NCBI GenBank assembly: GCA_947561395.2
Contig: OX387187.1
Span: 37,367,829 to 37,431,828 of the forward strand
Source: Buxus sempervirens
Taxonomy: Eukaryota > Streptophyta > Magnoliopsida > Buxales > Buxaceae
Direction of reading: 5' to 3'
DNA length: 64,000 nucleotides
The notes under the pieces were generated by a model. That model ran no database searches and was not told the origin of the DNA. It was given only the letters and a program-made list of their open reading frames with translations. How positions within the stretch are numbered: position 1 is the first letter of the stretch; each line of letters starts with the position of its first letter. Below, one piece after another: positions 851 through 50,901 of this stretch. The translations under genes and the position numbers were made by a program.

Positions 851-4086
<3,236 letters not shown>

Positions 4087-27953: not shown

Positions 27954-27962
27954 CTTCCGAAC
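27954..27962. repeat. left target-site duplication of the giant element
   Basis: cttccgaac, repeated at 48742-48750 directly outside the other terminus. Confidence 0.93.
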
Positions 27963-28118
27963 GCGCGCGGATCCTCTGTGAAGCGCATCGCCTGTGAAGC
28001 AAAGGCATCCTCTGTGAAGCGCAATCCAACGGACCAGAATAAGCGAAGGTTATAATAGTAATTTTGATCCAAACGCTTAAAAAACTATTAAAACTCTCCT
28101 CGGCTCTCTCCTCGGCAA
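27963..28118 (+). repeat. left terminal inverted repeat
   Basis: 156 bp, the exact reverse complement of 48586-48741. It contains repeated cctctgtgaagcg/ catcgcctgtgaagc text and starts GCGCGCGG. Such ends are where a MULE transposase binds and cuts. Partial similarity continues to about 28430. Confidence 0.95.
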
Positions 28119-28138
28119 TCTCCTCGTCTCGATGAAAA

Positions 28139-28230
28139 CGTGCGAAACATAGTATTTAATTTTGGATCCTCTCCACGTCCGCAACGTGCGAAACATATTA
28201 TTTATTTTTGGATCCTCTCCACGTCCGCAC
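28139..28230. repeat. 46-bp tandem pair just inside the left end
   Basis: cgtgcgaaacatagtattta... (28139-28184) is followed by a near-identical copy (28185-28230), each ending ctccacgtccgca. The right end has only one such segment (about 48530-48575, reverse strand). Confidence 0.85.
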
Positions 28231-28479
28231 TTTACCCGACATTGCGCCATTTCTGGACCTTCTTCGTCTTCGTCTTCGTCTTCGTCATCCTCATCGCATA
28301 CGAAAGGGACAGGATCATACTCCATTTGCTTCACAGAGGTTTCCCTTTCTTACAAACGCGCGCGCCCACTTGACGAAAGAAAGGGACCACCACCATCACA
28401 AGAACTTCGTAATTGAGGGACCACCACGACAGCCACCAGCCTCATTGAAAGACGACTGTAAGTCGTTATTTAATTTTAT

Positions 28480-29375
28480 AATATAATGAGTCAATGACCA
28501 AATGTATCATAAGGAGCCATGGGTACCAGGCGAAATAAGCCAAAGGTACTGCTCCAAATAACGATGGGTACCTTCTGAGTTAAGCTTTAGGTACGCCCGA
28601 AGAGCTCCCCAAAAAACATTTTCGTAGTCAACAAATAAACCTAAGGTACCCCACAAATCAGATTAAGGTACCCCACTCTTAGCCCAAGGTACCACATATA
28701 AGCCTAAGGTAGCTCCCATATAAACCTAAGGTACCCCATGGTAAGCCAAACCCACTCACGAAAATTAGCCTAAGGTACCCCCTAAACCTACAGTACCCAC
28801 AATATAAGCCCAAGGTATCCCCAATATAGGTCTAAGGTACTTCCTGAAATCGTGATTCGGCGATTTGTCCTGAGACCTAATCGCTACGAAACAGAGACAA
28901 TGTTTCACTGCTTACAGTTAATCGCAAATCTGCGATTCGTCATCTGATTAATCGCCGCACCTAATCGCCAGGTCACGATTAATCCTGTACTTAATCGTGA
29001 TGAAAATCTTGGGAAGTAAGGCTTAGATTCCTCTCCCCTCCCCAATTAATTCATAATTGGTGGGTTACTCAAGGCTTAGGGGGCTGGTACCTAAGGCTCA
29101 CTTGTTTGTACCAAGGCATTTTTGGGTGTACCTAGAACATTTTGGGTGGGGGTGGGGGGGAGGATATTTGGGGATACCCAAGGCTTATTTGTGGGGTACG
29201 AAAGCCTTATTTTGTTGGGGGTACCGAAGGCTTAATTGGGTTTTGGTAAGCCAATTTGTAGGTGTACGTAAACCAATTTAGGGGACCTATTTGTGGGTAC
29301 CCAATTCTTATTTGTGGGGTACAAAATGCATATTTGTGGGGTACGTAAGGCGTATTTCAATTTACATTTTGATTT
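28480..29375. repeat. left subterminal motif array of the giant element
   Basis: Three blocks. 28480-28845: many degenerate units of the form taagcctaaGGTACCcc. 28850-29010: a cluster of cgattaatcg-like words with a shared gaaacagagac motif. 29050-29370: GGTACC units again, but in the opposite orientation (ggGGTACCtaaggcttattt). The array therefore turns around the central cluster. Non-coding; may serve as transposase binding or as a promoter for the Ulp1-like gene. Function is inferred only. Confidence 0.8.
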
Positions 29376-29446
29376 TATAGATGGCACATGTAAATAGTCA
29401 CATTGCAAAGTTTTTTTTATCAATTTATGTATTTATTTGTAGATAA

Positions 29447-32400
29447 ATGGCACCAAGCGGGGAAGGAGTTCGCAATAGATGTAGTCCTCAACGACTTCTA
29501 AAAATTATCAAAAGGTTGAACGAGTCCCAGAAGCTAGCTGTTAGAGAAATTGGGCTGGGAAGCCTTCTGGATATGACGATTAAACACTGTTATAAGGGCA
29601 ACATTGTGTCCTTATTGGCTTCATTTGATCCCGAAAAATGTTGCCTTGAAGTAAGTGGAAGAACGTTTGAGATATCACCTCCTGATGTTCAGCGGATATT
29701 GGGGGTGACCTCTGCCGGGGAGAGTATAGAAATCGATGAGGTGGAAAATGACCTCACAGAATTAAAGAAAATGTATTGTGATGATAAAGGTAAGATACCT
29801 TTAGGAGAGCTGGAGAGAAGACTGCAAGAGAAGGAGACGGCGGATGAAGATTTTTTGAGGCTTTTTGTATTGCTTGCATTGGGCTCATTTTTATGCCCTC
29901 AAGCTAAGCCGGAGGCCAGCACAAAGTTCTTAAATCTCATAATGGATATGGAGGGACTCCGTACCCTCAACTGGTCGAAGTTGGTTCTTGATTGGCTCAT
30001 TGCTGCAATCCGCCGATACAAGGAGAAGCACCAAATATATGTCGGTGGTTGTTTGGTTTTTCTAAAGGTAAATTATTGTTATACACACATTTCATATATT
30101 TGGTATGCTTAAATTGTAATGGAAGAAATGTTTAATCAATCGCAGATGTTCTATTATGAATGCTTGCGCATGGATGGGAGCGCGATAGAGTTGGATGCAA
30201 CAGCTCCTCTCATCACCGTGTGGAATGATGAGGATGTGTTGGAAAGGGAGAAAGAAGGAAAGGAAAAGGACATGAATATTCCGGAACATATTGACTATGA
30301 AAATGTTCCGGAGTCCGATAAATCAAAGGGGAGGAAGAAGGTATATTATATTGTATTGTATTTATATTTTCGAATAGGGGGTACTCAATATGAATATTCA
30401 TTATACGTACATGGACATAAATTTTACTTGATTATGTGTTTTAGGAGGATAAACTGAGGGCAGCGATAAAGAAGCTAACAAAGGTAGTTGCTGCCCTTCA
30501 GCGTGAGGTAGCCAAATCCTCGAGATTGAAGGCTTTGGAGAAGGAGGTAATGGAAATCGGTTTTTGTCATTATTCATTATAAGTTCCAGATCTTATAGAA
30601 ATGCAAATGTTTGTGGCTTGATTTGTTTAGGTGGAGAGATTGAAGTTGATGATAAGCAATCTTGGAGTAGGGCAAGCTGAACTAAGAGAGATGGTTCTCG
30701 AGCTTGTTGGATATGCTCGTGACTACCGAAGCTACCCTACCCCTGAATGTCCACGTGAACCATTTGAGGTTCCAGTGAACGTTGCTTCTGCACCGGAGGG
30801 CCCTTGCCCGGTGTCGCCGATGGAAGATATTGAACCTAAGGCGGAATGTATCCCGGATCCAACAGCGGGAGAATATGAAGGTTCAATCGTTCCATTTCAA
30901 CCCGTTGAGGCTCCGAGATTGAAACGAATGAAGATTCCCGGCAAGGCAAAAAGGAGTCCTTTTACAACCATCACCGGGGAGAAAAAGAAAAGGGCCAGAA
31001 AGAGTAAGCAACCGCTCGATGCCGAGAGGCCAACGCAAACGGTAAGTAGTATATAATTGGATGTCTAATTGCATGTCAACCATTCATGTAAAACTTTACC
31101 ATAGTAGATTGAAGAGCAATATTGTCGATGTAATGATCATCGTGTGACCTACATGAAATATATTTCAGGTACCATCTTACGATGATGATCGTGCGGAGGC
31201 TAGGTTGTTGCCGGATCTGAACACTGCAGATCCGTCCATAGAGCCATTGGTATGTTTGTTCTCAGTTTTTCTAAAGGAATTGTTTTTGTTTTTCGGTTAG
31301 AATTAGGTTGACAGCCATATATTCATTTTTTGGAATTTTTAATAAACTTGTAGGCAAGCGAACCAGCGGATGCATCTTCTAGTAGGACGCCTGTGGATGC
31401 TGGAAGCGCGGTCTGCAACTATGCATTCCGTGAGGACCTCGATCCAGAGTACGTACTTTCGCATATTTATGTTTGACGCGTTGTTGCTTTGTAAATTGTT
31501 GCGTATGGTTTGACTGTTTCTTTTGTGGGATATATATGTAGCGAGGTTTTGGTGAGATTCTTTGATGTCTTCATTGCCCGCGGTGAGTTCGAATGTTTGA
31601 AGCCTGAGAAATGGGTTACCAACTGGGTAGGAGTCTAACAACCTAAGTATCTTGTCAGATCGCATAAATATTTGGATTCTTAGATTTTATTTTTTTCTAT
31701 GTAGATCTTGGATTGCTACATGCGGATGCTGAATTTCCAGGAACAGCAGGTTGGAGGCCCATGTTACTTCTTCCTGTCAGATATTGGGGTAATTATTACG
31801 ACATTCTTCAAAAGAATTTGACACTGTCTGTAATACTCCTGTTGAACCTATATTATAACTTTTCAGACTTTTTGCGCGGCAGAAGAAAACCGAGAACTTA
31901 CCAGACTTAATGATCAATTTGATCCATCGTACCTACTGAATATAGTGAACTACAAAATGGTAAGCTTAACTCACCATTGTTGCTGGGATCTTTTAATAGG
32001 GTAGGGCTAATAAATATGTTTGTATGCAGTTGTTTTTCCCTATATTGGAGCAAGAACATTGGTACATGTGTGTTGTTGACATGAATAAAAAGAAAGTCTT
32101 TTTTTTGAACTCGATGAAGGTGTGGATAACCCATGAAGTTCTCACTGGAGTGGTAAGTGATCAGCGTAATAATTTCTTGTGTCACTAATGTTGTTATTAA
32201 GTATCAATTTTTATATTTCAGCTAAAAGCAGTAGATATTATATGCACCTGGCAATGGGAAAAGCAAGTTTTAGTAAGCAAATTTCCAAGGACGAAAGCAG
32301 ATGCTCTTAAGCTTCCTCGGCAAGGCAACCCGTACGTTTTCCACCTATTCCTTCTTTTCTATACTTACTACGATATGATATTAATAGCATTAACTTGTAC

Positions 32401-32675
32401 TCGCATCTTTTGTAGCAATGACTGTGGAATCTTCACCATGAAGTTCGCCGCTTTCTGGAGAGGAGAACTTTCTCCTCGATTCACGCAGGTACGCTACAAC
32501 TCCTAACCTATCCAGTTGTGTTTTCAAAAGCTCCAAATGATCACATTATTAATATAGTTTTGTTAATTTTGAATAGAATGATATTCCGGGCTTCAGAAGA
32601 AGCATTGTGAGTGAGATGATCCTCCACGAAGAAAACACGGTGAAGGATGATATTGTGAAGAAGAGTTCTACCTAG
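29447..32675 (+). CDS. Ulp1-like cysteine protease of the giant element, 13 exons
   Basis: C48 (SUMO/ubiquitin-like) protease homologue. Exons: 29447-30067, 30146-30340, 30445-30546, 30631-31041, 31169-31249, 31354-31448, 31542-31626, 31705-31788, 31867-31959, 32030-32152, 32222-32331, 32416-32488, 32577-32675. Every junction is GT-AG, phases agree, and they join to 723 residues. The N-terminal 240 residues resemble the plant module found before Ulp1 domains in transposons (FEISPPDVQRILGV, LLALGSFLCP). A charged middle holds basic clusters. The C-terminal protease has His599 (EQEHWYMCVVD), Gln664 and Cys670 (RQGNPNDCGIFTMKF). The place of the catalytic Asp reads Asn616 (FFLNSM), unlike most active Ulp1 enzymes, so activity is uncertain. 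MULEs such as Kaonashi and CUMULE elements are known to carry Ulp1-like genes. Confidence 0.85.
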
Positions 32676-33009
32676 GGGGAGAGTTCGATGTATTAACATT
32701 TTTATATTATACATGCGTCACACTACAAACTAAAATTTTAATTTTTGGGGAATCTGTATGTATTTATTTGAGGACAAGGATGTTCCTGTAATGAATGCTG
32801 TAGCTGAATCAAGCATTCACTTGGATTTTACTTTTATGGCATGTTTAGTTTTTTATGATGTTTCACGATCATATTTTTGTAAAGTATTGTGTACATAGGA
32901 CATTGTATCCATTGAATAAAAGCTTGGTTATTTTGATTGCTTAAGTTCTGCCACAGATTCGTCAAACTCGTTGATCGTAAATTATGCCAAATTTTAAAAC
33001 AAGTTACTA
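32676..33009. other. 3' flank of the Ulp1-like gene
   Basis: Probable 3' UTR with an aataaaagc signal near 32917. No further coding sequence. Confidence 0.45.
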
Positions 33010-33620
33010 TACATTAGGTACTCCCCCCCAAAACAAAATGAAGGTACGGTTCGTGTGAAGTTTAAGGTAACCCCGTAACCGGCACAATGTACCACCCCCA
33101 CCCCATATAAGCTTAGGTGTCACCTAGTAAGAGTTGCGTACACGCCGAAATAAGGCCAAGGCGCCCACGAAATAAGCCTAAGTTACATCAGCAAATAAGC
33201 CAAAGTACCCCTAAGTAATACCCAGGTACCCCCAAAATTAATATTAAGGTAACCCATAAGTAAGCCGGAGGTACCCCCAAGTAGGAACTGATAATGAACA
33301 AAACGCGCGGACGTTAATCATTAACGCGCGGACGTTAATCATTAACGCCCGCACGTTGCAGCTTTAAAGTGCACAGTACGTGCGAGCGTTACCAGGAAAG
33401 ATTCGCGCGTTGAATATGCTCCCACTATTTTGTACGTGTGGGTACCTTCGGGTTTCTAGTGGGGTACCTCAAATTTACCTTTGGGGTACCTAAGTGTTAC
33501 TTGGAGGTACTCACCCCTTAATTTGGAGTATTTTTTGTGGATAAATTAAGGCTCGTGTGGGGGGTACCCTGGGCTGATTTGGGGGATACGTAGGCACGTT
33601 TGGAAGGGTATCTCAAGATT
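33010..33620. repeat. motif array between Ulp1-like and Transposase_32-like gene 1
   Basis: Left wing 33010-33290: GGTACC units in the taagcctaaGGTACCcc direction. Core 33302-33357: three 14-mers AACGCGCGGACGTT (the third varied) separated by 7-bp spacers aatcatt, so period 21. Then looser copies to 33415. Right wing 33420-33610: GGTACC units in the opposite direction (ggGGTACCttcgg, ggGGTACCtaagtg). The same wing-core-wing plan recurs throughout the element. Confidence 0.85.
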
Positions 33621-33966
33621 AAGATTAATATAAGCTGACTTTTTTTGCATTCCCCGTCTTCCCACGGCCTTCGTTGCAGATTTTAATCATTTCGTATAAT
33701 ACCTTAGTCTTGTAGGTGGAAGTTCATTACCATAGGCTAATATAACCAGCAACTTCGACTGGTTGTTTTGCATGTACACGCATTACGACGTGCTAGACCC
33801 AATGTGTGTGTATTGGGGAGATAGAGGAATATGACAAATGAAAGCTAAGACCAAACAATATTTGCTTTGCATGCACTTATCGCAACGTTTTACAGGCACA
33901 TAAGTAAAAAAAGATGGTCAAATAAGATGCATTCGATACTCAGATGACATGAAAAGAGGTTCAAGA

Positions 33967-35811
33967 CTATGGGGCAGGCCCTGCTGGATCAGGAACTTTG
34001 TGTGCAGGCTCAAGGGGTTCAAGCAACAAATGTTCATCTCGAATGTACTCCGCATCACTTGGAGGAATATGCTCTCCAACGACACCTTGAGAAGCTGCAT
34101 CGACAACTGTCCTCCGTTCTCCCTTGTCCCTATTCAGCCTGTGAAGCTCCTGATTTTCCAATTCAAAGTGCTTCATGGCCCGGCTGTAGTCTTGTTGCAT
34201 CTCCAAATATATCTCGTTCAGCCTGATCTGCTTCTGATGCACTGCTTTTAGTGTGTCATCAGAATTCCATACTGTTGACCTCACCCAACTCAACTTGCTG
34301 TCAATTTGTGCAAACTTCGGCTTAATCACTTCTCGTACATCCTTTCTCACAGAGTAGGTGTCACTTTCTACGTTCTGAAGAAGATGTTCCATTTTAGCAA
34401 CGTGGCGATCAGTTTCATGCTTGTATGCAAGCTGACCATCGTACAATTGTTTTATCTGCTGCTTCATTGTCTCCTGGTTCTCAAGAAGTAGCTTGGTTTG
34501 ATTCATCAACTCACATTGCATGCCCATAACCTGTGAAAGGATTGATGCGAGTCCACGAGGAAATTGGGAAGAAGTTGTTTGGTCTATAGGAGCAGCAGCA
34601 GGAGCAGGCGTCGATGAGGATGGAATATCATGTTCCACAGGTTGATCATGTGTAGCAGACTCCAGGAGAGGAAGATCATGCTCATGTCCTATAGAAACAT
34701 TGGGGGGAGGAGATGGAGGAGCAGGAGCATCTTCACCAGCAGTGGGAGGAGATGGAGGAGCAGGAGCATCTTCACCAGCAGGGGGAGGAGATGGAGGAGC
34801 AGCAGCATCCTCACCAGCAGGGGGAGGAGATGGAGGAGAAGGCGCATGGACCCCTGAAACAGGGGGAGGGGGTGGAGGAGCAGGAGCATCTTCACCAGCA
34901 GGGGGAGGAGATGGAGGAGAAGGCGCATGGACCCCTGGAACAGGGGGAGGGGGTGGAGGAGGAGGATGAGACTTGTTGTATTGCCCCTTGGACTTATTGT
35001 ATGTTGCAGTATTGATAGGAGGAAGGGGAGCAAGTAACTCATACTCGGGGAAGTCAATTTGATGCATCTTGACTATCTTTGCAATGGCACACCCGAGAGG
35101 AAGTCCACACCTACGTTTGGTATCGAGCAAACAGTCAAGCATAGTCGAAATCATGATGGTGGGAACATCAATTGAATGCCTGTTGACCAATGCATAAAGC
35201 AAGAGTGGCCTCATAGGAGGCACAGTTGATCTGTGACTCACCGGCGCAACGTTAGAGCATTGGATTTTGTATATGAATGAGGTGTCAAATGTAAACTTGG
35301 AGGAATCCAGAGCTTTGCCCTCATAGTCCCCCTCCCTCTCAGTGGTCAGTAAAAAAGCAGCCACTTCATTGAGCAATTGTGGTAAGGGAGCATCAACATA
35401 CGGGAATTCAGGATTCTCAACTCTCGGAATACCTAGGGCCCCAGCGATGGTATCAGAATCTACATGGATGGGCTGCCTTCTGAGAGAGGTATCGAAGGAT
35501 GGACCGTCTGCGATGTTGTGGATGTTTGAATAGAATTCATATACTAGGTGTTGGGATGGGAGCAGGAAGTTGGTGAAGAGGTTATCCCATCCCCTCCCGG
35601 TAAATGCTGAACTAATAGACTCGGGGAAGTCTTCTAGAATAACCCCTCTTTCAAGCAAGATTTGTCTGTGGCTGACATCATTCTCGTACAGCTTCTTGGC
35701 CTGCCGATCGATGAAGATTGAATTATCAAATGAATCAATCCTGCGTTTCTTATTGGCTATCCTGGAGGATTTCTTAGGTTTAGAAGATGAGGCTCTGGTC
35801 TTAGGGGCCAT
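33967..35811 (-). CDS. Transposase_32-like protein 1 of the giant element
   Basis: 614-residue uninterrupted frame. The N-terminus is strongly basic (KPKKSSRIANKKRR), a likely nuclear signal. Residues about 40-270 match the family annotated as putative plant transposon protein (Transposase_32): RGWDNLFT.FLLPSQHLVYEF, then IHVDSDTIAGALGIPR and MRPLLLYALVN. Residues about 280-390 are a proline-rich repeat made of PSPPPAGEDAP units. The C-terminal 200 residues are helical and likely coiled coil (QLYDGQLAYKHETDRHVAKM). The biochemical role of this family is unknown; it is usually found near retro- or DNA transposon genes. It is convergent with the Ulp1-like gene and divergent from gene 2, which starts MPRTKNSS, similar to MAPKTRASS here. 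Confidence 0.8.
   Translation of the reverse strand: MAPKTRASSSKPKKSSRIANKKRRIDSFDNSIFIDRQAKKLYENDVSHRQILLERGVILEDFPESISSAFTGRGWDNLFTNFLLPSQHLVYEFYSNIHNIADGPSFDTSLRRQPIHVDSDTIAGALGIPRVENPEFPYVDAPLPQLLNEVAAFLLTTEREGDYEGKALDSSKFTFDTSFIYKIQCSNVAPVSHRSTVPPMRPLLLYALVNRHSIDVPTIMISTMLDCLLDTKRRCGLPLGCAIAKIVKMHQIDFPEYELLAPLPPINTATYNKSKGQYNKSHPPPPPPPPVPGVHAPSPPSPPPAGEDAPAPPPPPPVSGVHAPSPPSPPPAGEDAAAPPSPPPAGEDAPAPPSPPTAGEDAPAPPSPPPNVSIGHEHDLPLLESATHDQPVEHDIPSSSTPAPAAAPIDQTTSSQFPRGLASILSQVMGMQCELMNQTKLLLENQETMKQQIKQLYDGQLAYKHETDRHVAKMEHLLQNVESDTYSVRKDVREVIKPKFAQIDSKLSWVRSTVWNSDDTLKAVHQKQIRLNEIYLEMQQDYSRAMKHFELENQELHRLNRDKGERRTVVDAASQGVVGEHIPPSDAEYIRDEHLLLEPLEPAHKVPDPAGPAP
34700..34970 (-). repeat. coding minisatellite in Transposase_32-like gene 1
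   Basis: Repeats based on gaggagatggaggagcagg (plus strand), in-frame units of roughly 36-42 bp that encode PSPPPAGEDAPAP-type blocks. All units keep the frame, so the tract can expand or shrink without breaking the protein. Confidence 0.85.
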
Positions 35812-36289
35812 CTAAGATTTCAGAAGAAGAGAGGAAGAAAAATAAATATGCACAAAACAACACATAGCAAACGATAATGTTAGACACAGAAAAGATGAGT
35901 GCTACCGAATGCAAATAATATAGAATGTGAATAATATGAATAATTGTGTGGAAAAAACCCACTCCCTATATACATAAAAAAAAAACCCCAACACTTGAGG
36001 AAAAAGTGCAGGCGTTATTCACACGTCAGGGAGATAACAATAGGGATGTGTACTTGTCAAAGGCTTATAGGAAAAGTGAATAGTAACTTGATTGCAACCG
36101 ATAATATAAACCATTCCGACGAAGATAAACCAAAATGTACCTCTTGAAGACATTAGAATAAACACATAGATCGGAAACCCTAAATGAACAAATTAATACC
36201 CTAATCGTAACATATAAAATCAAAGCAGTAAAGTTCGTAAAGCATCTCGTAAGTCCTACGAACCAGAAATATAGGCTTTGGAACTCTTC
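35812..36289. other. upstream region of Transposase_32-like gene 1
   Basis: Likely promoter and leader of the minus-strand gene. A TATA-like tatatagggag is readable on the minus strand near 35965-35977. No gene. Confidence 0.35.
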
Positions 36290-36690
36290 CAGAAGAGAAG
36301 TGGTACCCACCCTGAGAAGACTTTATCGCAATGAAGATGAAGCGCTTCGGATGGCTTTGATTCGCATGGACGAAATAACGCGCCAGACCTGTTTCTTTGT
36401 AAATATAGGCAAATGCCCGAATGCACGCGCCCAGCACGTGCGCGCGTTGATATTAAATATGTGCCAAAACATAAGGAATTCTTCAAAGGGTACCTTCGGT
36501 TTATGATTGGGGTACCCCAGGCAAAATGTGGGGATACCTCATGCAAAAACACGGCGGTACCCAAACCCGAAGCGAACGTCCGAGCGTTCACGAGAACGTG
36601 CGCGCGTTGATATTAAATATGTGTCATCCCTAGAGCCTCTTAACTTTTTTAAAGTGTCCCAACGGGTTTTGTTCACGAGAACGTCCGAGC
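36290..36690. repeat. left flank motif block of the core
   Basis: Contains GGTACC units (36482-36560) and a pair of 14-mers, AACGTCCGAGCGTT at 36575-36588 and AACGTGCGCGCGTT at 36595-36608 (6-bp spacer here). A further copy is near 36680. Confidence 0.75.
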
Positions 36691-36785
36691 GTTCATGTAT
36701 GTACATTTGTATATGTGTGTACACATGATTGTACACATGTGTGTACATGTGCACACATGTACATGTATATATGTGTACACATGTA

Positions 36786-37660
36786 CCCAGGTCTGTACAT
36801 GTGTACACATGTACATGATATATGTGTACACAAGTACATGTTCTTTAACGTGTACATGTACGGACATGTGTGCACATGTACACACATGTCTACATCTGTT
36901 CAAATGCATGTAAATGTACATGTATGTGTACAAATGTACACACATGTACATGTGTGCTCATATTGACATGTGTAAGCGTGTACACATGCACACACATGGG
37001 CACATGTGTGTACACACACGCACATGTGTACACATATACATATGTGTAAATGTGTACACAGATGACAATGTCCATGTGTACATTTGTAAGGTACATCAGC
37101 AAACAAGCCAGAGGTGCCCCCAAATGATAACTTACGGTAGGGACAATTACGAAAACAAGTACGTCATAGGTACCCCACATAAAACGTGGGTACCCCAACA
37201 ATAACATGACGGTACCCCACACGTAAGGCGAAGGTACCATATATAAGGAATTACTAGGAAACATTAACGCGCGGACGTTAAGGTCCAACGCGCGCGCGTT
37301 AAAGCTATTAATACGCGTCCGACAGCTGTCTTCTTCGGCAGGAACGTTCGCGCGTTCATGACCAACGTCCGCGCGTTGACGTCTCTTCCACTTTCCTTCT
37401 ACAGGGTACCTTCGCTTTTAAAACAGGGGTACCTTCGTATTATATCCTTGGGTACCCCCCTAATATTTGGGGGTACCTGTGTCCTACACTAATTTACGCT
37501 CCTGTGCTTGTACATACATGTGTACAAATACATGAAAGCAGCCGATACACATTAAAAAATGTAATAACACGTGTGCACAGATGACAATGTCATAGGAACC
37601 CCAACTAATACGTGGGTACCCAAGGATAGGGAATGAAGCTACCCCACACGTAAGGCGAAG
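36786..37660 (+). repeat. left arm of central inverted repeat
   Basis: About 880 bp, nearly identical in reverse complement to 39976-40858. Both arms share an unbroken 132-codon frame with the same translation (36890-37288 minus, 40356-40754 plus), so at least 400 bp is practically identical. The symmetry axis is near 38820. Confidence 0.88.
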
Positions 37661-39975
37661 GTACCATATATAAGGAATTACTAGGAAACATTAACGCGCG
37701 GACGTTAAGGTCCAACGCGCGCGCGTTAAAGCTATTAATGCGCGTCCGACAGCTGTCTTCTTCGGCAGGAACGTTCGCGCGTTCATGATCAACGTCCGCG
37801 CGTTGACGTCTCTTCCACTTTCCTTCTACAGGGTACCTTCGCTTTTAAAACAGGGGTACCTTCGTATTATATCCTTGGATACCCCCCCCCCAATATTTGG
37901 GGTACCTGTGTCCTACACTAATTTACGCACCTGTGCTTGAACATACATGTGTACAAATACATGAAAGAAGCCGATACACATCAAAAAATGTAGTAACACG
38001 TGTGCACAGTTGACAATGTCATAGAAACCCCAACTAAAACGTGGGTACCCAAGGATAAGGAATGAAGCTACCCCATACGTAAGGCGAAGGTACCCAATAT
38101 GAGGATTTACTAGGAAACGTTAACGCGCGGACGTTAATGTTGAACGCGCGAGCGTTAAAGTTATTAATGCGCGTGCGACAGCTCACTTCTTCGACCGGAA
38201 CGTTCGCGCGTTAGAGACCAACATCCGCGGGTTAACGTCTGTTGCCCTTTCCTTCTACTGGGGTACCTTCGCCTTAACACCTGGGTACCTTCATATTATA
38301 TTTTGTGGTACCTTAGGTTTAAGTGGGGTACCTGTGGCCTACCCTAATATACGCTTCGGTACATGTGTCTACTTGTGTACACATACATACAAGCAAGCCT
38401 ATACACATCAAAGAATGTACTTACATGTGTGTACACAATTACACACATGTGTGTGCGTGGGTATACGTACATGTACACAAGTACATGTTTACAGGTACAG
38501 AAATTTGTAGACATGTACAGACATGTGTGTACATGTACACATGTGTACATGTGTTAACATGTATGTACATGTACATGTGTACACACATGTACCTGTACCT
38601 GTGTACACACATGTACATGTGTAAACATGTATGTACATGTACATGTGTACACACATGTACCTGTACCTGTGTACACACATGTACATGTTTACAAATGTAC
38701 ACACATGGGCACATGTTTACACACATCTACATGTGTGCACATTGATACATGTCTACTCATATATAAATGTACATGTTTACACATATATGAGTACACATGT
38801 ACACACATGTCTACATCTGTTCAAATGCATATAAATGTACATGTATGTGTACAAATGTATGGTTAGGCACAGTTACGAAGAAAAGTACGTCATAGGAACC
38901 CCAACTACTACGTTGGTACCCAAGCATAGGGAATGAAGGTACCCCATGCGTAAGGCGAAGGTACCCAATATGAGGAATTACTAAGAAAAGTTAACGCGCG
39001 GACGTTAAAGTCAAACGCGCGAGCGTTAAAGCTAATAAAGCGACAACGGTCTTCTTCGGCCGAAACGTTCGCGCGTTAGAGACCAACGTCCGCGCCTTAA
39101 CGTCGGTTCCCCTTACCCTCTACTGGGTACCTTCGTTTTGAAGCCGGGATACCTTCGTATTATATATTGAGGTACCTTTGTTTTGATTAGGGTACCTGTG
39201 GCCAACCCTAATATACGCTTCTGTGCATGTCCATACATGTGTACATGTGTAAACATGTATGTACATGTACATGTGTACACACATGTACCTTTACCTTTGT
39301 ACATACATGTACATGTTTATACCTGTACACACATGGGAACATGTTTACACACATATACATGTGTGCACAGATACACATGTGAACATGTCTACTCATATAT
39401 ACATCTCCATGTTTACACATATACACATGTGTACATGTGTGTGCACGCATATATACATGTACATGTGCATTTATATATGAGTAGACATGTACCAATGTTT
39501 ACACATGTATATGTGTATAAACATGTGCCCATGTGTGTACATTTGTAAACATCTACATGTGTGTGCACAGGTACAGGTAAATGTGTGTACACATGTACAT
39601 GTACGTGTACCCACGCACACAGGAAAATGTGTACTTGTGTGCACAAATGTAAGAACATTCTTTGATGTGTATAGGCTTGCTTGTATGTATTTGTACACAT
39701 GTAAACACATGTACCGAAGCATATCTTAGGGTAGCCCACCGGTACCCCCACTTAAACCTAAGGTAGCACAAGATATAATACGAAGGTACCCCGGGGTTAA
39801 AACGAAGGTACCCGAGTAGAAGGAAAGGGCTACAGACGTTAACGCGCGGACGTTGGTCTCTAACGCGTGAACGTTCCGGCCGAAGAAGAGAGCTGTCACA
39901 CGCGCAATAATAACTTTCACGCTCGCGCGTTCGACATTAACGTCCGCGCGTTAACGTTTCCTAGTAATTCCTCAT

Positions 39976-40858
39976 ATTGGGTACCTTCGCCTTACGTGTG
40001 GGGTAGCTTCATTCCCTATCCTTGGGTACCCACGTATTAGTTGGGGTTCCTATGACATTGTCATCTGTGCACACGTGTTACTACATTTTTTGATGTGTAT
40101 CGGCTGCTTTCATGTATTTGTACACATGTATGTACAAGCACAGGAGCGTAAATTAGTGTAGGACACAGGTACCCCAAATATTAGGGGGGTACCCAAGGAT
40201 ATAATACGAAGGTACCCCTGTTTTAAAAGCGAAGGTACCCTGTAGAAGGAAAGTGGAAGAGACGTCAACGCGCGGACGTTGGTCATGAACGCGCGAACGT
40301 TCCTGCCGAAGAAGACAGCTGTCGGACGCGCATTAATAGCTTTAACGCGCGCGCGTTGGACCTTAACGTCCGCGCGTTAATGTTTCCTAGTAATTCCTTA
40401 TATATGGTACCTTCGCCTTACGTGTGGGGTACCGTCATGTTATTGTTGGGGTACCCACGTTTTATGTGGGGTACCTATGACGTACTTGTTTTCGTAATTG
40501 TCCCTACCGTAAGTTATCATTTGGGGGCACCTCTGGCTTGTTTGCTGATGTACCTTACAAATGTACACATGGACATTGTCATCTGTGTACACATTTACAC
40601 ATATGTATATGTGTACACATGTGCGTGTGTGTACACACATGTGCCCATGTGTGTGCATGTGTACACGCTTACACATGTCAATATGAGCACACATGTACAT
40701 GTGTGTACATTTGTACACATACATGTACATTTACATGCATTTGAACAGATGTAGACATGTGTGTACATGTGCACACATGTCCGTACATGTACACGTTAAA
40801 GAACATGTACTTGTGTACACATATATCATGTACATGTGTACACATGTACAGACCTGGG
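39976..40858 (-). repeat. right arm of central inverted repeat
   Basis: Reverse-complement partner of 36786-37660. The shared segment ends at cagacctggg (40858), matching cccaggtctg at 36786. Confidence 0.88.
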
Positions 40859-42109
40859 GAACATGTGTGTTCTTGTTTGCACACATGTAAGTACATTGTT
40901 TGGTGTGTACCGGCTTGCTTGTATGTATGTGTACACATGTATGTACATGCATAGACGCGTATATTATGGTTGGCCCCTGGTACCCCAATTAAAACTAAGG
41001 TACTGCACTATATAATACGAAGGTACCCCGGTTTCAAAACGAAGGTACCCGGTAGAGGGTGAGGGGAACAGAAGTGAACGCGCGGACGTTGGTCTTTAAC
41101 GCGCGAACGTTCTGGCCGAAGAAGATCGTTGCCGCTTTATTAGCTTTAACGCTCGCGCGTTTAACTTTAACGTCCGCGCGTTAACTTTTCTTAGTAATTC
41201 CTCATATTGGGTACCTTCGCCTTACGTATGGGGTACCTTCATTCCCTATGCGTGGGTATCCACGTATTAGTTGGGGTACCTATGACGTACTTGGCATGTG
41301 TACACATGTCTGTACGTGTACCCACGCACACACATATATACCTGCGTTTATATGTGTGTGTGTTCCTGTTTGCACACTTGTAAGTACATTTTTTGTTGTG
41401 TATCGGCTGCTTGTATGTATTTGTACACATGTATGTACAAGCACAGACGCGCATATTAGGGTAGGCCACAGGTACCCCAGTTAAAACTAAGGTAGCCATT
41501 GATATAATAAGAAGGTACCCCTGTGTTACAGGTAAGGTACCCCGTAGAAGGAAAGGGGCACAGACGTCAACGCGTGGACGTTTGTCTTTAACGCCCGCAC
41601 GTTCCAGATTAAGAGGACAACTGAAGCGCGCGCTTTCTGAAGGACCTTTCGCGCGCTATTGTATGGGGTACCTTCATATGTTTTTTTGGGTACCTGCGTT
41701 TTATGTGGGGTACCCATACAGTACCTGGCTTCTTAATTGTGGCAACCGTAAGGCATTATTGGGGGGCACCTTTGGCTTTTTTCCTGATGTACCTTAGAAT
41801 TTTTTGAGGGGTGCCGTGGTCGTATTTCTTGGGTTACCTCGCTACAACTCTGTGCTATTGGTTCTCTCTTCATGGGGTCACGTTTTGGAAAACTTTGCAC
41901 AGTACCTTGGGCTTAAGTCTGGGGTAGCATGGCCTTCTTTAGGGGGTACTCAGATTTGTATGTATTGAAGGTTCAAAAATACGTGCACATATCTTACATG
42001 AGTCACATTCATAACGTGACATGAATGTTATAAACTCTCACATCATTCAATACCTTTCCCATGATTTCTAGACACATTATTATATCATAAAAATATAATA
42101 TTTTCATAC

Positions 42110-42380
42110 AGCAAGTCGCTGTTTCATCAGGGTTAGGTCCCATGCATAATCGGAACATGGCGATTAAGCATGCGATTAATCTATTGATTTGTACGACTAA
42201 TCGTGCGGCCGTATGTATTATTTGTATGCGCACAAGCGAGGGTTTATGTTTGGGTGTATAAATAGAGGGTTTCGCTCCACTTCGTACTCACGAGTAATCT
42301 AGGGTTTCCTACGCATGGGTCCCCTTATTCCACTGTTCTCCTGCTGCCTCTCGCCTCCAAATCACGATTAATCTACGGTA
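42110..42380. promoter_or_regulatory. promoter of Transposase_32-like gene 2
   Basis: A strong TATA box, tataaata, lies at 42257-42264 and predicts a start near 42290. Upstream (42110-42215) are gattaagcatgcgattaatc and gactaatcg words plus ctgtttcatca, the same motif family as the clusters near both termini; another (cacgattaatc) is near 42364. Confidence 0.6.
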
Positions 42381-42459
42381 TACGCACTTCCTGTTTCTTC
42401 CAGGGTTCTCCAAGTCTGTATACTCTCCAACTCAAGGCCAAATATACGGGGTTTACGGT

Positions 42460-43863
42460 TTGGCTCCACCAAGTTTCCACTGTGAGTTGTGTCGAACATT
42501 GTTTTGTTCTCTGTCATTTTCTCAAATCATGCCTCGAACAAAGAATTCTAGCATGCGCCATAAGAGGAGAAGGGATAGGACTCCTGCACCTGCAAGTCCC
42601 TCATTATCTTCCGGCTCTCATTACAGCCCTTCTGAGACAGAGGAACCCAATCCCTCTCAGTCTACCATCCACAGGGAGCCTTATTCTCCTGATAATTCGT
42701 CGTCTGTACCTTCTGAAGCCGAGCAGATTCGGCAGCGACCCTTGATTGTTGAGAAACCGGTTCTTAGATCATGTTTAGAACCATATGGTATTGTACAGAT
42801 TCTGGAAGCTGTTGGTTGGTCCGGCATTCTAGATTGGGGGGATGCTGCCAACTCCTCGACTGTTGCTCAACTTTATGCCGGATCCCGTAACTTGTCCACC
42901 CCTCCTTTTCGTGAGCCTGCATTTGAGATCAAAGTGGCAGACTCTACATATACTGTCACACCTGACTTGATAAGTGATCTAATGGGTATACCTAGATCAG
43001 AGATCCGTTTCCTGAACCCACCAACGCAAGAGGAACTTGCTGAGGCCACTCAATGTCTGTGTGGGATTGATGCACCATGGAAAAAGACTGTGCTTCAAGC
43101 TAATCAGCTCTTCCCTGCGTATAGAATACTCCATCTCATCTTCACATTCAATGTCTATCCTAGGTGCGGTAATAAGTTCGAGCTGACCAAGCCCATGGTC
43201 TTCCTTCTCTACCGTCTCATTACTCGGACGCGCCTTTGTCTGCCCACATTCATTTGCAGACATATATGTCAAGTTGTCCATTCATCTCGTCCCAGAGCCC
43301 TTCCGTTTGCCTATCTTATGACCAGGATTGGGATGAGGTTTGGTTTACGTGGACCTCCTGATTCCATGGTTATTTCAAGGCAATTTTCACAGATGAATCT
43401 AAATCAAATGCAACTTGCACCTTTGCACCACCACTGTCACGCGGCTCAGAGATCCGAAGAATCAATGGCGCACCAACAGCAGCCACAACAAAGAGAGGAA
43501 GCAGAGCCAGCACAACCTTCGTCATCACATCCTCGTCCACCCACTTCTCAACCCAGCTCTTTCAAGACATATTCACGACGTGGACCGTCGTCAGAAGCCT
43601 TTCGTAGGCTTAGCCAAGATGTTGGAGAGATTCGAGAGGATTTTGGCAGTCTACGACGTGATTTTGGAATGTTTCAGGAATCTATCACTCATGAAGTTGG
43701 TGGACTAAAGAAGCTGGTCAAGAAAGCCGTGAAGATAGTGACTCATCTCTTCACTTGCTCCACTCAGCAGACTCCATCCCTCCCACCACTTCCCGGGTCT
43801 GATGACGATGACATTGCACCATATTGTGCTGATTTTAGACGTACTTCTATGTTTTGGATATAA
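42460..43863 (+). CDS. Transposase_32-like protein 2 of the giant element
   Basis: 467 codons from the first Met; the second Met at 42529 (MPRTKNSSMRHKRRRDR, 444 residues) is the better start because it opens a basic N-terminus like that of protein 1. After a Ser/Pro-rich stretch, residues about 90-330 follow the same plan as protein 1: VAQLYAGSRNL, YTVTPDLISDLMGIPRSE, LTKPMVFLLYRLITRTRL and a basic segment before RIGMRFGLRG. The C-terminus is Gln/Pro-rich and then helical (RLSQDVGEIREDFGSLRRDF) with a Leu/Lys helix. No intron needed. It is a diverged paralogue of protein 1, not a copy. Role unknown. Confidence 0.75.
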   Translation: MAPPSFHCELCRTLFCSLSFSQIMPRTKNSSMRHKRRRDRTPAPASPSLSSGSHYSPSETEEPNPSQSTIHREPYSPDNSSSVPSEAEQIRQRPLIVEKPVLRSCLEPYGIVQILEAVGWSGILDWGDAANSSTVAQLYAGSRNLSTPPFREPAFEIKVADSTYTVTPDLISDLMGIPRSEIRFLNPPTQEELAEATQCLCGIDAPWKKTVLQANQLFPAYRILHLIFTFNVYPRCGNKFELTKPMVFLLYRLITRTRLCLPTFICRHICQVVHSSRPRALPFAYLMTRIGMRFGLRGPPDSMVISRQFSQMNLNQMQLAPLHHHCHAAQRSEESMAHQQQPQQREEAEPAQPSSSHPRPPTSQPSSFKTYSRRGPSSEAFRRLSQDVGEIREDFGSLRRDFGMFQESITHEVGGLKKLVKKAVKIVTHLFTCSTQQTPSLPPLPGSDDDDIAPYCADFRRTSMFWI

Positions 43864-43989
43864 ATGTCTTTATCTCAACGCAACTCAGATGTGTAGAATG
43901 TACTCATTTCCCATAGTAAAAGTATTCGTAATTACAGCATCATAATCCTCTGTTGTTTCCATTTGATATAACTTTGTCCATCAATCTAC

Positions 43990-44500
43990 TCCGAATCAGT
44001 TCCTTCTTTGAAAAGATGATTGGCGGTGCACCGTAGGCCTCATTTGGGGGCTACCTAAGGCATCATTGGGGGGATTCCTTGAGGACAAGGGCATAATTAC
44101 AGGGAACAAAGTGGTACGTTAGGAAGTAGGAAGAATTTCCTTATAACGCGCGGACGTTACGAACCAACGTTCGCGCGTTGAAATCTCAATCACCAATTCG
44201 TACTGCAACGTTCGGGCGTTGATATCCCAGGTACGCGCGTCATGCTATTTGTGCAGAGGGTACCTTGCGCTTATTTGTGGGGTACCTAAAGCATGATTGT
44301 GGGTACCTAACGCGTAATCTACGGTACCTAAGGTCCAGATGGGTGGGTTCTTATTGTTGTTTCAGGGGATACCTTAACTCTTCAGTTGGGGTGTACAAAA
44401 TTTATATATTGGGGGGTTTTGGGAGCCATTATGGGTGGCGCCTAAGGGTTGATGTTGGATGTACCTGTGTTATTAATGGGGGAACCTTATTTTTATTTGG
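43990..44500. repeat. motif array between gene 2 and the transposase gene
   Basis: Left part has degenerate GGTACC-like units (ggctacctaaggcatcat). The core has 14-mers AACGCGCGGACGTT (44145-44158) and AACGTTCGCGCGTT (44166-44179), with a 7-bp spacer; a looser one is near 44208. To the right (44259-44440), GGTACC units read ggGGTACCtaaagc. Same layout as 33010-33620. Confidence 0.8.
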
Positions 44501-44945
44501 GATGTACTTGCAAGAGGAACAGCAAGAAGCTCTGAAAATATTAACCAATTAACAGAACTAAATAATTAACTCAAAATTGCGATTCTCATTCCACTGGAAG
44601 TATACATTTGGTACATACACATCCTTGTACAATTAGAAAAAATGAACACTTACATTGCACTACAAGAACAATATAATTACAAGACTAACACTGTCAACAC
44701 ATTCAATACACACAATTCACTCCCCCTTTCTTGTCGTACCAATATACAAAAGAATCACAAATCTCCAGGGAAATGATCTAAATCTCCTTCTTGACGATAT
44801 ACGCTCCCATCTCGACTATAAACTCCTGGAGATCTCCCTACAGTAGAGCTTGAACAGGAGCCAAATTGATTCTGGCCAACAGTATTGCTTGAGTTGGATT
44901 CTTGGAATATGTTTGGACTCATTGATTCCTGTCATTAATGGAATG

Positions 44946-47490
44946 TCATTGCAAAGCATTGAAAGTCTTCAAAAAGTATTGAAGAGTAGGATCTTCTAGA
45001 AAATATACCCGCAGTAGCTGTGTGTAAGTACCAGGTTGTTGGAATGGAGACAAAATTGCATATTCAGCCATAGGATATGTTCTCGATTGCATTCCCGTCA
45101 CCACTCCATCTGTTCGAAACTGATGAGAGGCCTATGGAATACATAAAATTCATAAAAAATAAGAAATCCCCCATAAAACCATAATCATGATATGATAAAA
45201 CAAATACATTAGTATGAGGTAAGTATTATACCATTGTCTCACTCCATCCAGAGCTTTGACTTGCATATTGTGTTTGTGGTGGAGTTTGAGTCTGAATTGT
45301 ATTTGCCGTTTGAGCTGGTCTGTCATGGTTCCTCTTGCTCTTTGGAGCCCTTTCTGAAAAATGTTTTGGTCGACGTCCACTACGACCTCGACCCGGCTTC
45401 CTCTTCAGTCCAGCAACGGTGATTTGGATATTTTCAGATAAATTCTCTCCTTCATTCACATCCACTGTGCTCGGAGGCTTGTTCTTCAGCACATTTCCAA
45501 CTTCAGTCATTAAAATGGCCAGCCCATTCGCAGCACATTCATATGCCTCGAAAGTTTCGGCAGCAATTGCTGATAATTTAACGGCATTATGGCAAAGTTC
45601 TCTGTACCGTTTAACCAAGGACAACTTTGCCACTTCCTCATCTGACATACGACTATAACTTGGGCTGCAACCCTTTGCATCCTTTGTCCACCGCTTTAAT
45701 ATGTATTGACTTGGGATCCTATTAATATTTCGCATGTCAAGTACTTTGAGTGCATGGCTACACAAAATCCCAACAAATTCAAACTTACGGCAACTGCATT
45801 TCAACATATCATCCTCAGTGTTAACTGTAACAACATGCCCTCGAGGATTATCAAATAAGCTAACTTTATAGATTTTGGATGTCTCAGTATGTGAAGTCTC
45901 ATTAACAACAAGATTCTGAGCTTTTGCATATTCCGATTGAAAAATCTCAAACAGCTTCGGTGTGTATACCTCCCTTCCATGCTTTAATATGATGATTTCT
46001 GCCATCATTCTTGGAATACGCTGGCTCATATTATAATTGTCTTCCTGTTCCTTGTAACGGATATCATCCAAAAGCCTTGCAAAATGCTGGAAAAAACACG
46101 AGACGTCCATGTTGTACTTCGTGTATTTCTTTAACCGGCTGTTGAAGCTTTCACTCAGTTGGGTGCTCTTCATGTCAGCACAAAATGTAGTTCTTCCATA
46201 TACAAGGGCCCATTTCTCCTTTATCTTAAATATGCCCTTCAGCCACTCATTGTCTTGGAGATCGTATTTTTGAATCATTGCATCCCACGCTTCCAAGAAC
46301 TCAGCCTCTTCCTCGTAATCATATATACACCGATTGAAATCAGATGAAAAGGAGGTTCTCGTTTGGAATATGTGACCGAGATGCTTCAATGAATTTTGGT
46401 GCAAATGCCATACACATAACCGATGATACGTGTTCGGCAAAACAAAAGCAATTGCAGCTGACATAGCTGCATCTTGGTCTGTCAAGATGGTAACTGGCCC
46501 TTTCCCATTCATTGCCTTTATAAATGTTTCAAACAACCAAACAAAGGATGCCTTCGTCTCATCATAAAGCATTGCAGCTCCGAACACTACCATTCGTCTG
46601 TGATGGTGGACTCCAACCAATGGTGCAAATGGCCTTTGAGCTTCGTTTGTCCTATAAGTTGTATCAAAACAAACAACATCTCCAAAATTATTGTAGTCTT
46701 CTTGCATCTTCCGATCAGCCCAGAAAAAGTTTGTAATTTCATTGTTCTCATCAACTTGTACAGCATAAAAGAAAGACGGATCGTCAATCAGTTGTCCTTC
46801 AAAATAAATTAATAACCTTGATCCATCTCCTACTTTCATTGCTCTCCGTCTGTCACGAATCTGGTTCTTATGGTCAATAGGTAGGAAGCCCAAATTCTCT
46901 CTTCCGCCGGCTTCTCTACCCATGAACTCAAAAGCATGCTTTGGTCGTATGCCACTGCTTTCTGCTAATACAATTTCTGCTAATTGCGCCTCTGTAACTT
47001 TCCTCTGTGAAGGTAGCATGTGGACCTTACTTGGGGTAACAACCTCATGATTATGCTCGTCCTCAAAGCTCGCTACAAAATACATGCCATTGTCTTGAGC
47101 TTTCACACTCATGTGTGCCAAACAACCCGTACGTGTTTCCTTTCTAGGGTTCTTCACATCTTTATCCCGTTTGTCTATTCCCTTCTTCCCTTCTTTATAG
47201 CAACAAAACTTCCTACACAACTCCTTACCATCTTTCCGACTTTTCCAGCTCGTACTCTTTCGAATACTGAAGCCCTTCTGTGCTGCATAAGCATTGTAAA
47301 ATCTATACGCTTCATCGGTAGATGGGAACTCCATTCCCACGGATGGCCTAAAATTTTGAGTATGCCCTTCGCCGTCATCGAACCTTAGTGCTCTTACAAC
47401 TCTAGGCACTGTATTTATATCCGCTATATCATCACTAACCTCATCTCCACTTAATTGCTCACTTCCACTTGTACAAATGACTTGCTCCAT
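44946..47490 (-). CDS. FAR1-type MULE transposase of the giant element
   Basis: Likely the transposase. Exon 1 is 47490-45232 and exon 2 45131-44946 (GT-AG, phase 0), giving 814 residues; a 5' UTR intron may end at ttgtag just before the start. In order: acidic leader; FAR1 DNA-binding zinc domain about 53-150 (MEFPSTDEAYRFYNAYAAQK ... TGCLAHMSVKAQ ... DEHNHEV); MULE DDE domain about 255-390 with VVCFDTTYRTN, TILTDQDAAMSAAIA and the CVWHLHQN motif, and a candidate third acidic residue in LSESFNSRLKKY; SWIM zinc finger (CSCRKFEFVGILCSHALKVL) near 575-600; basic tail (LKRKPGRGRSGRRPKH). The same architecture is found in the domesticated FHY3/FAR1 regulators and in the Jittery transposase. Its position between matching termini shows it belongs to a real transposon. 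Confidence 0.92.
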
Positions 47491-47559
47491 TTGTCCCTAC
47501 AACATAAAACTGATATTCCACTTAGAATATCATACTAATAACAATATATAGTACCCATG

Positions 47560-48200
47560 AACATCACAGGGTAACCATTCTCTTCAACCATGTGCCAAGT
47601 TGGTGTATTTTGACGGCTTATTACAAAACTTGAGTACGTCGGAATAATTTCTTAGTACCTACACACATGGTACCTACGAATTATTTTTACGGTACGCCAA
47701 GGGTACGAAGGTGGTACATAAGTTTTGGACCTTCTTCATTCCCATAGGTTTGGTTAAAATAAGATAGAATATACTGGCAACAAATAAAGTCAAAAAAAAG
47801 ACAAAACATGTCGGCGCGATTAGCCCAGAGATTAATCGTGAGATCCGCGATTAGCATCCACGACTAATCGCCCAGTCAAGATTAGGTCTCGCGATTAATC
47901 TCAAGATTAATCGCGACTGTCCCGATTAACTCTCCAGAGAACATGAAGTCTCTGTTTCATCACGATTAAATCCCAGGATTAATCGGTGCCAGACGATTTG
48001 GGATACCTACGACAATTTCTTGGGTACCTATGCCTTATTTTGGCTTAATTGGGGGTACCTAGGGCATTATTGGCGGTTTTTTGGTGGGTACCTACAGGTT
48101 CTTATGGTGTGTACCTAAGGCTTAATTGTGGTGAACCTCACATTTTTTCGGTGGGTACCTAAGGCTTGTTCGGGGGTGGTAATGGCTTATTTGACAGCTG
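47560..48200. repeat. right subterminal motif array of the giant element
   Basis: Mirror of the left array. 47570-47720: sparse GGTACC-like words. 47815-47998: about ten cgattaatcg-like words and the motif gtctctgtttcatcacg, the reverse complement of text in the left cluster (gaaacagagac). 48001-48180: GGTACC units in the ggGGTACCtaaggctta direction. Distances from the cluster to its terminus are about 0.74 kb here and 0.88 kb at the left. Confidence 0.8.
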
Positions 48201-48585
48201 TTTATTTCTGGGCGTACCCTGTCGATGTGTGGCGGCGCGGCATTGTTCGCCCGACTATCATTTCAATTTATTTAAGGTTCCACCATCTTCGGGGGTTGAC
48301 ATTAATGGAAAATGCCAAAAATCTGTTTATGTACCTGGTTTACATTGGTTGTTGGAGTCTTAAATAGAAACCCATAATGGTGGAGTGAGTGGTGGTCCCT
48401 TCTTCTTTAACACTTGGAAGTGGAACTGTGGTAGCTGCCTTCCTTTTCTTCGAAGTGAGAGTAAAGACAGCACCTTTCCCGCCAATGTCGGAGTAAACAC
48501 AGAAATGTCTGAGTAAGAACAGAGAAAGTTCGGACGTGGACAAGATTATAAGTTAAATAATATAAATGTTTCGCGCGTTTTCGTC

Positions 48586-48741
48586 TTGCCGAGGAGAGAG
48601 CCGAGGAGAGTTTTAATAGTTTTTTAAGCGTTTGGATCAAAATTACTATTATAACCTTCGCTTATTCTGGTCCGTTGGATTGCGCTTCACAGAGGATGCC
48701 TTTGCTTCACAGGCGATGCGCTTCACAGAGGATCCGCGCGC
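48586..48741 (-). repeat. right terminal inverted repeat
   Basis: 156 bp, exact reverse complement of 27963-28118, ending GGATCCGCGCGC at 48741. Confidence 0.95.
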
Positions 48742-48750
48742 CTTCCGAAC
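48742..48750. repeat. right target-site duplication of the giant element
   Basis: cttccgaac, the exact partner of 27954-27962. Confidence 0.93.
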
Positions 48751-50463: not shown

Positions 50464-50901
50464 AATTGAAAATTTTCTTAGGAAGGCTATGTTCACAACT
50501 AAAATTTAATATCTGTGGGACATGCTGTAGCTGACTCTGTGCCTGTAACTTGTACTAGTGAGAAGAGATACTTTACTGACTTTTCATGCCTTTTGTTGAC
50601 AAATCAATTATTATGCAATCACATTACTTCATGGTTGTCTTTTGCGTGTCTCTTACAGAAACGTTATCCAAACCGGCCCATAATTGAATTTGAGGTTGCA
50701 GCTCAGGAGCAGATGAAGATCACTGAGCTACGCCTGGCCAAGCTATTTTCGGCCGAAGGGAGAACTGCTTTGGCCAGTGGCCAGTCTTGCAGTACCCTTG
50801 CATCTAAAGCAGAAGGTAGTTTATGTACTTTATATTTTAAAATTTGAATAAACCATTGAAGGGTTAAATTGGAAATGTGTGCCTAATGCTCTTGTTGCCC
50901 T

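Follow-up and report, generated by a model that had tools for sequence, protein, structure and literature searches.

We have analysed a window of 64,000 nucleotides from the genome of Buxus sempervirens (genome size 676.5 Mb; contig OX387187.1, positions 37,367,829 to 37,431,828), in which the 20,779 bp from 27963 to 48741 make up one complete Mutator-like element (MULE) with four genes. The element is bounded by mutually identical terminal inverted repeats (TIRs), past whose 156 bp the subterminal sequences diverge, and the 9 bp on its two sides are the same (CTTCCGAAC, a target site duplication, TSD). The order of the parts is TIR > Ulp1> <T32-A [array] T32-B> <transposase < TIR, that is, the two outer genes, for a Ulp1-type protease and a FAR1-type transposase, begin 1.3 and 1.1 kb in from the TIRs and point towards the centre, and the two inner genes, T32-A and T32-B, diverge from a central array of repeats (Table 1). 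The gene models are predictions from sequence, and all four are open in the window copy.

The evidence that carries this description comes from the rest of the host genome. A search with the 156-bp end (420 first-look candidates) gave 40 scored matches, of which 33 were exact over 156 bp, three exact over 154 bp and four at 99%, and the match between the two ends in the window is therefore not due to chance. These ends fell into 15 pairs, the window copy among them, and 10 single ends. Thirteen pairs were spaced 19.3–21.4 kb apart; the spacings of the other two were 16.0 and 38.9 kb. TSDs were found in 13 of the 15 pairs and are all different (12 exact over 9 bp and one, at the C8:45.6 Mb pair, exact over 10 bp inside a CT run), so each of these copies lies in its own target site. 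The duplications of C8:45.6 and C8:4.4 were read by eye in the flanks, the scripted 9-bp test having missed C8:45.6; in the C8:4.4 copy the left end has its two outermost bases altered.

We read eight of the 14 other pairs in full. All four genes were present in seven of them, T32-A being missing from the eighth (C8:48.5). With the array excluded, the window copy is 99.31–99.67% identical to the eight (two of which aligned on part of one side only), and the eight reach 99.89% among themselves, so that the window copy is probably not a member of the youngest group. When the array is counted in, identity in the larger blocks is 96.4–99.7%, and C8:16.85 is rearranged in the array. The transposase is open in seven of the eight (frameshift in C11), and so is the Ulp1-type gene (stop in C19; a splice dinucleotide is changed in C9:5.3 and in C8:48.5). 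T32-A is complete and open in five, absent from C8:48.5 and frameshifted in C19; in C1:52.5 it is partial in the copy alignment and open at 627 aa in a search of the genome with the T32-A protein. That search, in which 72 of 7,216 candidates were scored, gave 114 matched stretches, of which 112 reached at least 78% identity, with many loci giving two. T32-A matches lie at 21 of the 25 loci defined by ends (14 of the 15 pairs and seven of the 10 single ends), and at the single-end loci they are 11.0–16.9 kb from the end, where 12.9 would be expected; the locus test used 33 of the 114 match rows, and no other row is near the remaining four loci. Since the copies are nearly identical, the spread appears to be recent: the element has moved as a unit, and has done so many times.

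A preliminary description, made from the window alone, had claimed a complete 20.8-kb Mutator-like element with exact 156-bp TIRs and a 9-bp duplication, holding four open genes (a FAR1-type transposase, a Ulp1-like protease and two Transposase_32-like proteins). The sequence bears this out, now with fuller gene models. It had also proposed that full-length copies with different duplications would support the claim, and such copies exist, as described above. Neither of the outcomes that it named as contrary was seen: the termini do not enclose unrelated or shorter interiors (eight of eight fully read copies share the interior, one of them without T32-A), and the genes do not belong to separate nested elements, inner ends being absent outside the central array.

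Table 1. Parts of the element in the window (positions are those of the 64,000-nucleotide window).
Feature	Position	Strand	Basis
Left target site duplication CTTCCGAAC	27954..27962	.	Exact match to 48742-48750
Left TIR, 156 bp	27963..28118	+	Exact inverted match; exact over 156 bp in 33/40 scored genome matches
Left spacer, upstream side of the Ulp1-type gene; 10 GGTACC and GATTAATC motifs	28119..29446	.	Motif counts
Ulp1-type cysteine protease gene, 13 exons, 723 aa	29447..32675	+	Gene model; Pfam C48; SENP2 alignment
Spacer between convergent Ulp1-type and T32-A genes; 6 GGTACC	32676..33966	.	Motif counts
T32-A, Transposase_32-domain protein, 614 aa, middle proline-rich	33967..35811	-	PF20167, 7.7e-20
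Spacer adjoining the T32-A start; 4 GGTACC	35812..36679	.	Motif counts
Central array between divergent T32-A and T32-B starts; 50 GGTACC, 27 CGCGCG, 81 TGTACA	36680..41860	.	Repeat and motif analysis
Spacer ahead of T32-B; GATTAATC motifs, zero GGTACC	41861..42528	.	Motif counts
T32-B, Transposase_32-domain protein, 444 aa in the window copy	42529..43863	+	PF20167, 1.3e-13
Spacer between convergent T32-B and transposase genes; 4 GGTACC, spacing about 21-22 bp	43864..44754	.	Motif counts
FAR1-type MULE transposase, 3 exons, 851 aa	44755..47490	-	Pfam; gene model; DDE/SWIM residues kept
Right spacer, upstream side of the transposase; 5 GGTACC, 4 GATTAATC	47491..48585	.	Motif counts
Right TIR, 156 bp	48586..48741	-	Exact inverted match
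Right target site duplication CTTCCGAAC	48742..48750	.	Exact match to left 9 bp

The transposase open reading frame (ORF) matches the Pfam families FAR1 (1.9e-26, an N-terminal domain), MULE (3.2e-26) and SWIM (2.1e-07). It has D276, D338 and E447, which we take to be the catalytic DDE residues, with the same residue in 59, 56 and 54 of 60 alignment rows; C359 and H362 are shared by 60 and 54 rows, and the four SWIM ligands by 60. The ca. 9-bp duplications, a MULE-type DDE transposase with a SWIM finger and the long TIRs place the element in the Mutator superfamily, and the N-terminal FAR1 domain is that of the Jittery/FAR1 type. The best-scoring match among 5.8 billion proteins covered 66% of the query at 53% identity. 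A tree with 59 homologues (chosen from 120 listed of 896 matches; FRS-like relatives, Jittery itself not included) puts the protein on a long separate branch, nested in none of the smaller clades. This disfavours its being a captured host FRS gene, in a partial test in which the clades were presumed to be host genes.

The model of the Ulp1-type gene has 12 introns, all GT-AG, and its product matches Pfam Peptidase_C48 at E=3.9e-14. The active site of Ulp1/SENP (C48) proteases is a His-Asp-Cys triad plus a Gln. In our protein, aligned to SENP2, the catalytic His and the catalytic Cys are conserved, as is the position of the Gln, and the Asp is replaced by Asn. The same Asn is found in nine of nine copies, so that, judged by these sequences, it is a family trait and not a new lesion; in the older relative described below the alignment stops before this position. 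An H-N-C triad occurs in a C48-like protease of a large DNA virus. No homologues were found at E<=0.001 among 8000 candidates scored, a result of little weight, as the words used for the query were drawn from residues 1-500, which do not include the protease domain.

The two inner proteins belong to Transposase_32, a plant family that Pfam names only as a putative transposon protein. They are related to one another (20% identity over 224 columns, E=8e-07 in a single comparison). T32-B has 431 aa (it ends at codon 432) in eight of the eight other fully read copies, the window copy having 13 additional residues. For T32-A residues 30-275, no homologues were found among 1292 candidates.

The non-coding DNA between the TIRs contains 79 GGTACC sites, against a summed shuffle expectation of ca. 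5. Besides those in the array, 29 are distributed over five of the six other spacers; a single one lies within the spans of the four genes, their introns included, and four lie in the 43.2 kb of flank. The longer form GGGTACC, counted together with its complement, was found 70 times in spacers and never in genes or flanks. The GGTACC sites are frequently 21–22 bp apart, a short tandem motif in non-coding DNA of the kind found in VANDAL and KIU elements. The array is also enriched in CGCGCG (0.5 expected) and TGTACA (9.9 expected), and clusters of GATTAATC-type motifs are found upstream of Ulp1, T32-B and the transposase and not upstream of T32-A. The array, 5.2 kb in length, is built of ca. 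429-bp units in two facing arms, together with TGTACA-rich stretches, and the number of units per arm varies among copies. Two inverted arms of 687 bp (36786-37472 and 40172-40858) are 100% identical, closer than other array copies, which suggests a recent inverted duplication or conversion.

An older relative on C3, of which 19.8 kb were read, has Ulp1, T32-A and T32-B ordered and oriented as they are in the window element. The stretch begins inside Ulp1 and ends before the transposase, so that the ends and the transposase lie outside it. At the DNA level the five longest blocks are 84–91% identical to the window copy and the sixth 81%, and the spacer array aligns in pieces only, mostly at 66–77%. 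This relative contains 46 GGTACC sites, none of them inside its three genes. For Ulp1 exons 4-13 the ratio of nonsynonymous to synonymous substitution rates (dN/dS) between the two was 0.60, with one stop in the relative. Among the young copies, nonsynonymous over synonymous changes were 0.46 for Ulp1, 0.38 for T32-A, 0.40 for the transposase and 2.00 for T32-B; when a strong transition bias is allowed for, T32-A alone stayed below expectation at p<0.05, and the signal is weak overall.

As to the surroundings of the insertion, a pentatricopeptide repeat (PPR) ORF (25007-26767) has its start about 1.2 kb left of the element and points away from it, so the insertion is 5' of this ORF. On the other side are an HIUase/transthyretin-like ORF (51380-51967) and a coiled-coil nucleotide-binding leucine-rich repeat (CC-NB-LRR) resistance gene in two frames (52348-54764), in which NB-ARC matches profile positions 2-75 only in the first frame and the second frame begins near the winged-helix domain; this gene looks broken or truncated. 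The PPR, NB-LRR and FAR1 sequences by themselves mark the host as a plant. Farther out there is an S-locus lectin receptor-like ORF (2710-4110; B_lectin, S_locus_glycop and PAN, with no kinase domain in the ORF). Repeats in the flanks comprise an array of TTTTTTCG-type 8-bp repeats (50874-51057) and families of direct repeats (4914-8372) of 130–290 bp, 83–92% alike and spaced 1.0–2.3 kb apart.

Taken as a whole, we read the element as a complete giant MULE of the FAR1/Jittery type that has been mobile recently and is apparently autonomous, with a probability of roughly 0.65. Several observations weigh against this reading or against a helper role for the proteins other than the transposase. 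Two of the 15 pairs (C8:16.85 and C1:42.45) have no TSD, and the 16-kb copy without T32-A has kept exact TIRs and its TSD. The similarities of the Ulp1 N-terminus to DUF1985 (24.2 bits) and to PMD (25.9 bits), which would favour a helper role, are weak, under the gathering cut-offs of 35.1 and 34.9, and a fold common to the T32 pair and this N-terminus was rejected, as the resemblance is motif-like and seen by eye only (hhalign probability 0.10 on a scale of 0–100). Against the C3 relative, dN/dS of T32-A was 0.95 by protein alignment (0.70 for residues 73-252 and 2.35 for the first 72 residues) and 1.02 by DNA mapping, and that of T32-B 0.92, with three stops in the relative; with values near 1, the T32 genes give no clear sign of purifying selection. 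Finally, the spacer repeats may have come from slippage alone. Some of these points are what one would expect of an ordinary MULE with passengers, for which the TIRs and the transposase suffice. On that view the Ulp1 and T32 genes would be cargo, captured or inherited, that does nothing for the element, and slippage and gene conversion would have spread the motifs as neutral minisatellites. The near neutrality of the T32 genes and the 16-kb copy fit such an element, and transduplication of ULP (Ulp1-like protease) sequences by MULEs is well reported (PMC2528002, PMC13317346). Passengers of this kind sit less well with four full-length genes, two of them with introns and none a fragment, with a three-gene order conserved at 81–91% identity, and with motifs kept out of the genes in both subfamilies. 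Moreover, T32-A of the C3 relative differs by 154 substitutions in 551 codons and contains not one stop, where ca. 5.6 nonsense changes would be expected under neutrality (154 x 3.6%). The gene thus looks open yet fast-changing, which fits an arms race or weak constraint alike. We regard the passenger explanation as a serious one, falling somewhat short of an even chance.

Two other explanations concern the unity of the element and the manner of its multiplication. In plants, genes are often captured and elements often nested, and separate elements (e.g., one with T32 and Ulp1 and a FAR1 MULE) might have come together by chance within older ends. One example of nesting is at hand: the 38.9-kb copy (C19) contains an 18.5-kb long terminal repeat (LTR) retrotransposon, which sits in the spacer that separates T32-B from the transposase and has LTRs of 2,353 bp that are 99.83% identical and a 5-bp duplication, CCAAC, read by eye. 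Within the window element, however, neither LTR pairs nor inner pairs of TIRs with TSDs were found outside the central array. Of 250 candidate TIR and TSD matches, the 40 listed all had zero mismatches and lay inside the palindromic array; 37 pairs not wholly inside it had up to 5 of 14 mismatches, and the best of them had 3 of 14. One motif family is, in addition, common to the spacers between the genes. Because the copies at eight other sites, eight of the eight fully read, hold the same interior, the window element is a single unit and not a set of nested pieces, and a chance composite is very improbable. Segmental duplication in place of transposition would account for the high similarity of the copies and for the two pairs without TSD, but the 13 different TSDs speak so directly against it that we give it next to no credence.

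MuDR is about 5 kb long and has two genes. The window element resembles it in having genes in opposite directions between long TIRs (partly from PMC9168764). The preliminary description had stated that FAR1/Jittery-type MULEs are of a few kb with one gene, and that Ulp1-bearing MULEs have MURA-type transposases. Neither statement is supported. In grapevine the Jittery-like elements Jitvine-1 and Jitvine-2 measure 11.9 and 14.4 kb, and ULP sequences follow the transposase on its downstream side in some Jittery-like families; ULP is also reported from Jittery-like MULEs of melon (PMC2528002 and work cited in it). Grape has MuDR-side families of 16.2 and 17.7 kb as well (PMC2528002). Jitvine-1 and -2 are thus akin to our element in their Jittery-type transposase, in large size and in the ULP of some of their kin, and differ in being 6–9 kb shorter; the part of PMC2528002 that treats them describes no Transposase_32 genes or spacer motif arrays, and its table gives no TIR or TSD lengths. 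With the ULP-bearing MULEs of melon and rice, Jittery-like in melon, the Ulp1-type protease is shared, and a four-gene 20-kb structure is not among what that same part of PMC2528002 describes. One ORF is given for the plant Jittery group in PMC6446971, which also places PMD genes in many plant MULE clades; the four genes found here depart from this single-gene feature, which is not strict, ULP-bearing Jittery-like families having been reported in grape.

Likeness to the VANDAL and KIU (Kaonashi) elements of Arabidopsis and eudicots is of another kind. These have a transposase plus further genes, the ULP domain (versions of KIU carry Ulp1, PMC13317346), DUF1985 (in VANC) and short tandem motifs (PMC5735166, PMC13317346, PMC6446971). 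The anatomy is VANDAL-like in its dense short motifs, which lie in spacers and not in genes and persist while the surrounding sequence turns over. However, those elements are typically non-TIR, some relatives having TIRs, and a FAR1 domain is not listed for the VANDAL group in the relevant section of PMC6446971, whereas the window element has long exact TIRs, a FAR1 domain on its transposase, two T32 proteins in place of a clear VANC, and another motif. On account of the similar spacer motifs the element may work like VANDAL, and on account of the TIRs, the FAR1 domain and the missing clear VANC, membership of VANDAL is unsupported by the features tested. Among large elements of other groups, barley Abermu is also a multi-ORF MULE with recent transposition and high copy number (TIRs of 138–145 bp, 9-bp TSD), though it is just over 8 kb, has three ORFs and belongs to a MuDR-related clade, not Jittery (PMC9168764). 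The En/Spm (CACTA) DNA transposons of Chondrus crispus reach 16–20 kb with 4–5 ORFs, in another superfamily and a red alga host (PMC6431247). The novelty claims of the preliminary description, which knew of no described family with this gene set and length, were therefore too strong on size and on ULP. As to the exact set, one with two Transposase_32 genes was not found in the portion of the open-licence PMC literature covered, by a search that was narrow in its aim at Transposase_32, and nothing was found there linking Transposase_32 with Mutator. Under the name ‘putative plant transposon protein’, two association studies were found. What stands out is the combination of a length of 20.8 kb, four genes, a recent spread in multiple copies, and spacers full of motifs that resemble the VANDAL target repeats.

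How would such an element move? Because it belongs to the Mutator superfamily, we propose that the FAR1-type DDE transposase, after binding to the TIRs, makes the cuts and integrates the element with a stagger of 9 bp, as is established for MULEs. The other proteins might be helpers. By analogy with VANC in Arabidopsis VANDAL, the T32 pair above all, with or without the Ulp1-type protein, would recognise the GGTACC-centred and CGCGCG motifs of the spacers and counter host silencing; alternatively, these proteins would serve the element's own expression by loading onto it. We put this forward tentatively, as the likeliest reading of the helpers, though with the odds against it. It is unlikely, if attractive, that a FAR1-type MULE lineage evolved a sequence-specific anti-silencing of its own, independent of VANDAL. 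The fast-evolving T32 proteins, perhaps with the H-N-C SUMO-protease-like partner, would then read the GGTACC/CGCGCG arrays, and the escape from silencing would let a 20.8-kb DNA transposon spread in many near-identical copies.

The element gives Transposase_32 a defined genetic home with intact copies. If the helpers do enable its spread, it would be a natural case in which to test how DNA transposons of large size overcome both the size limit and host silencing and, should an anti-silencing system of its own prove true, this would give the plant Transposase_32 family a function.

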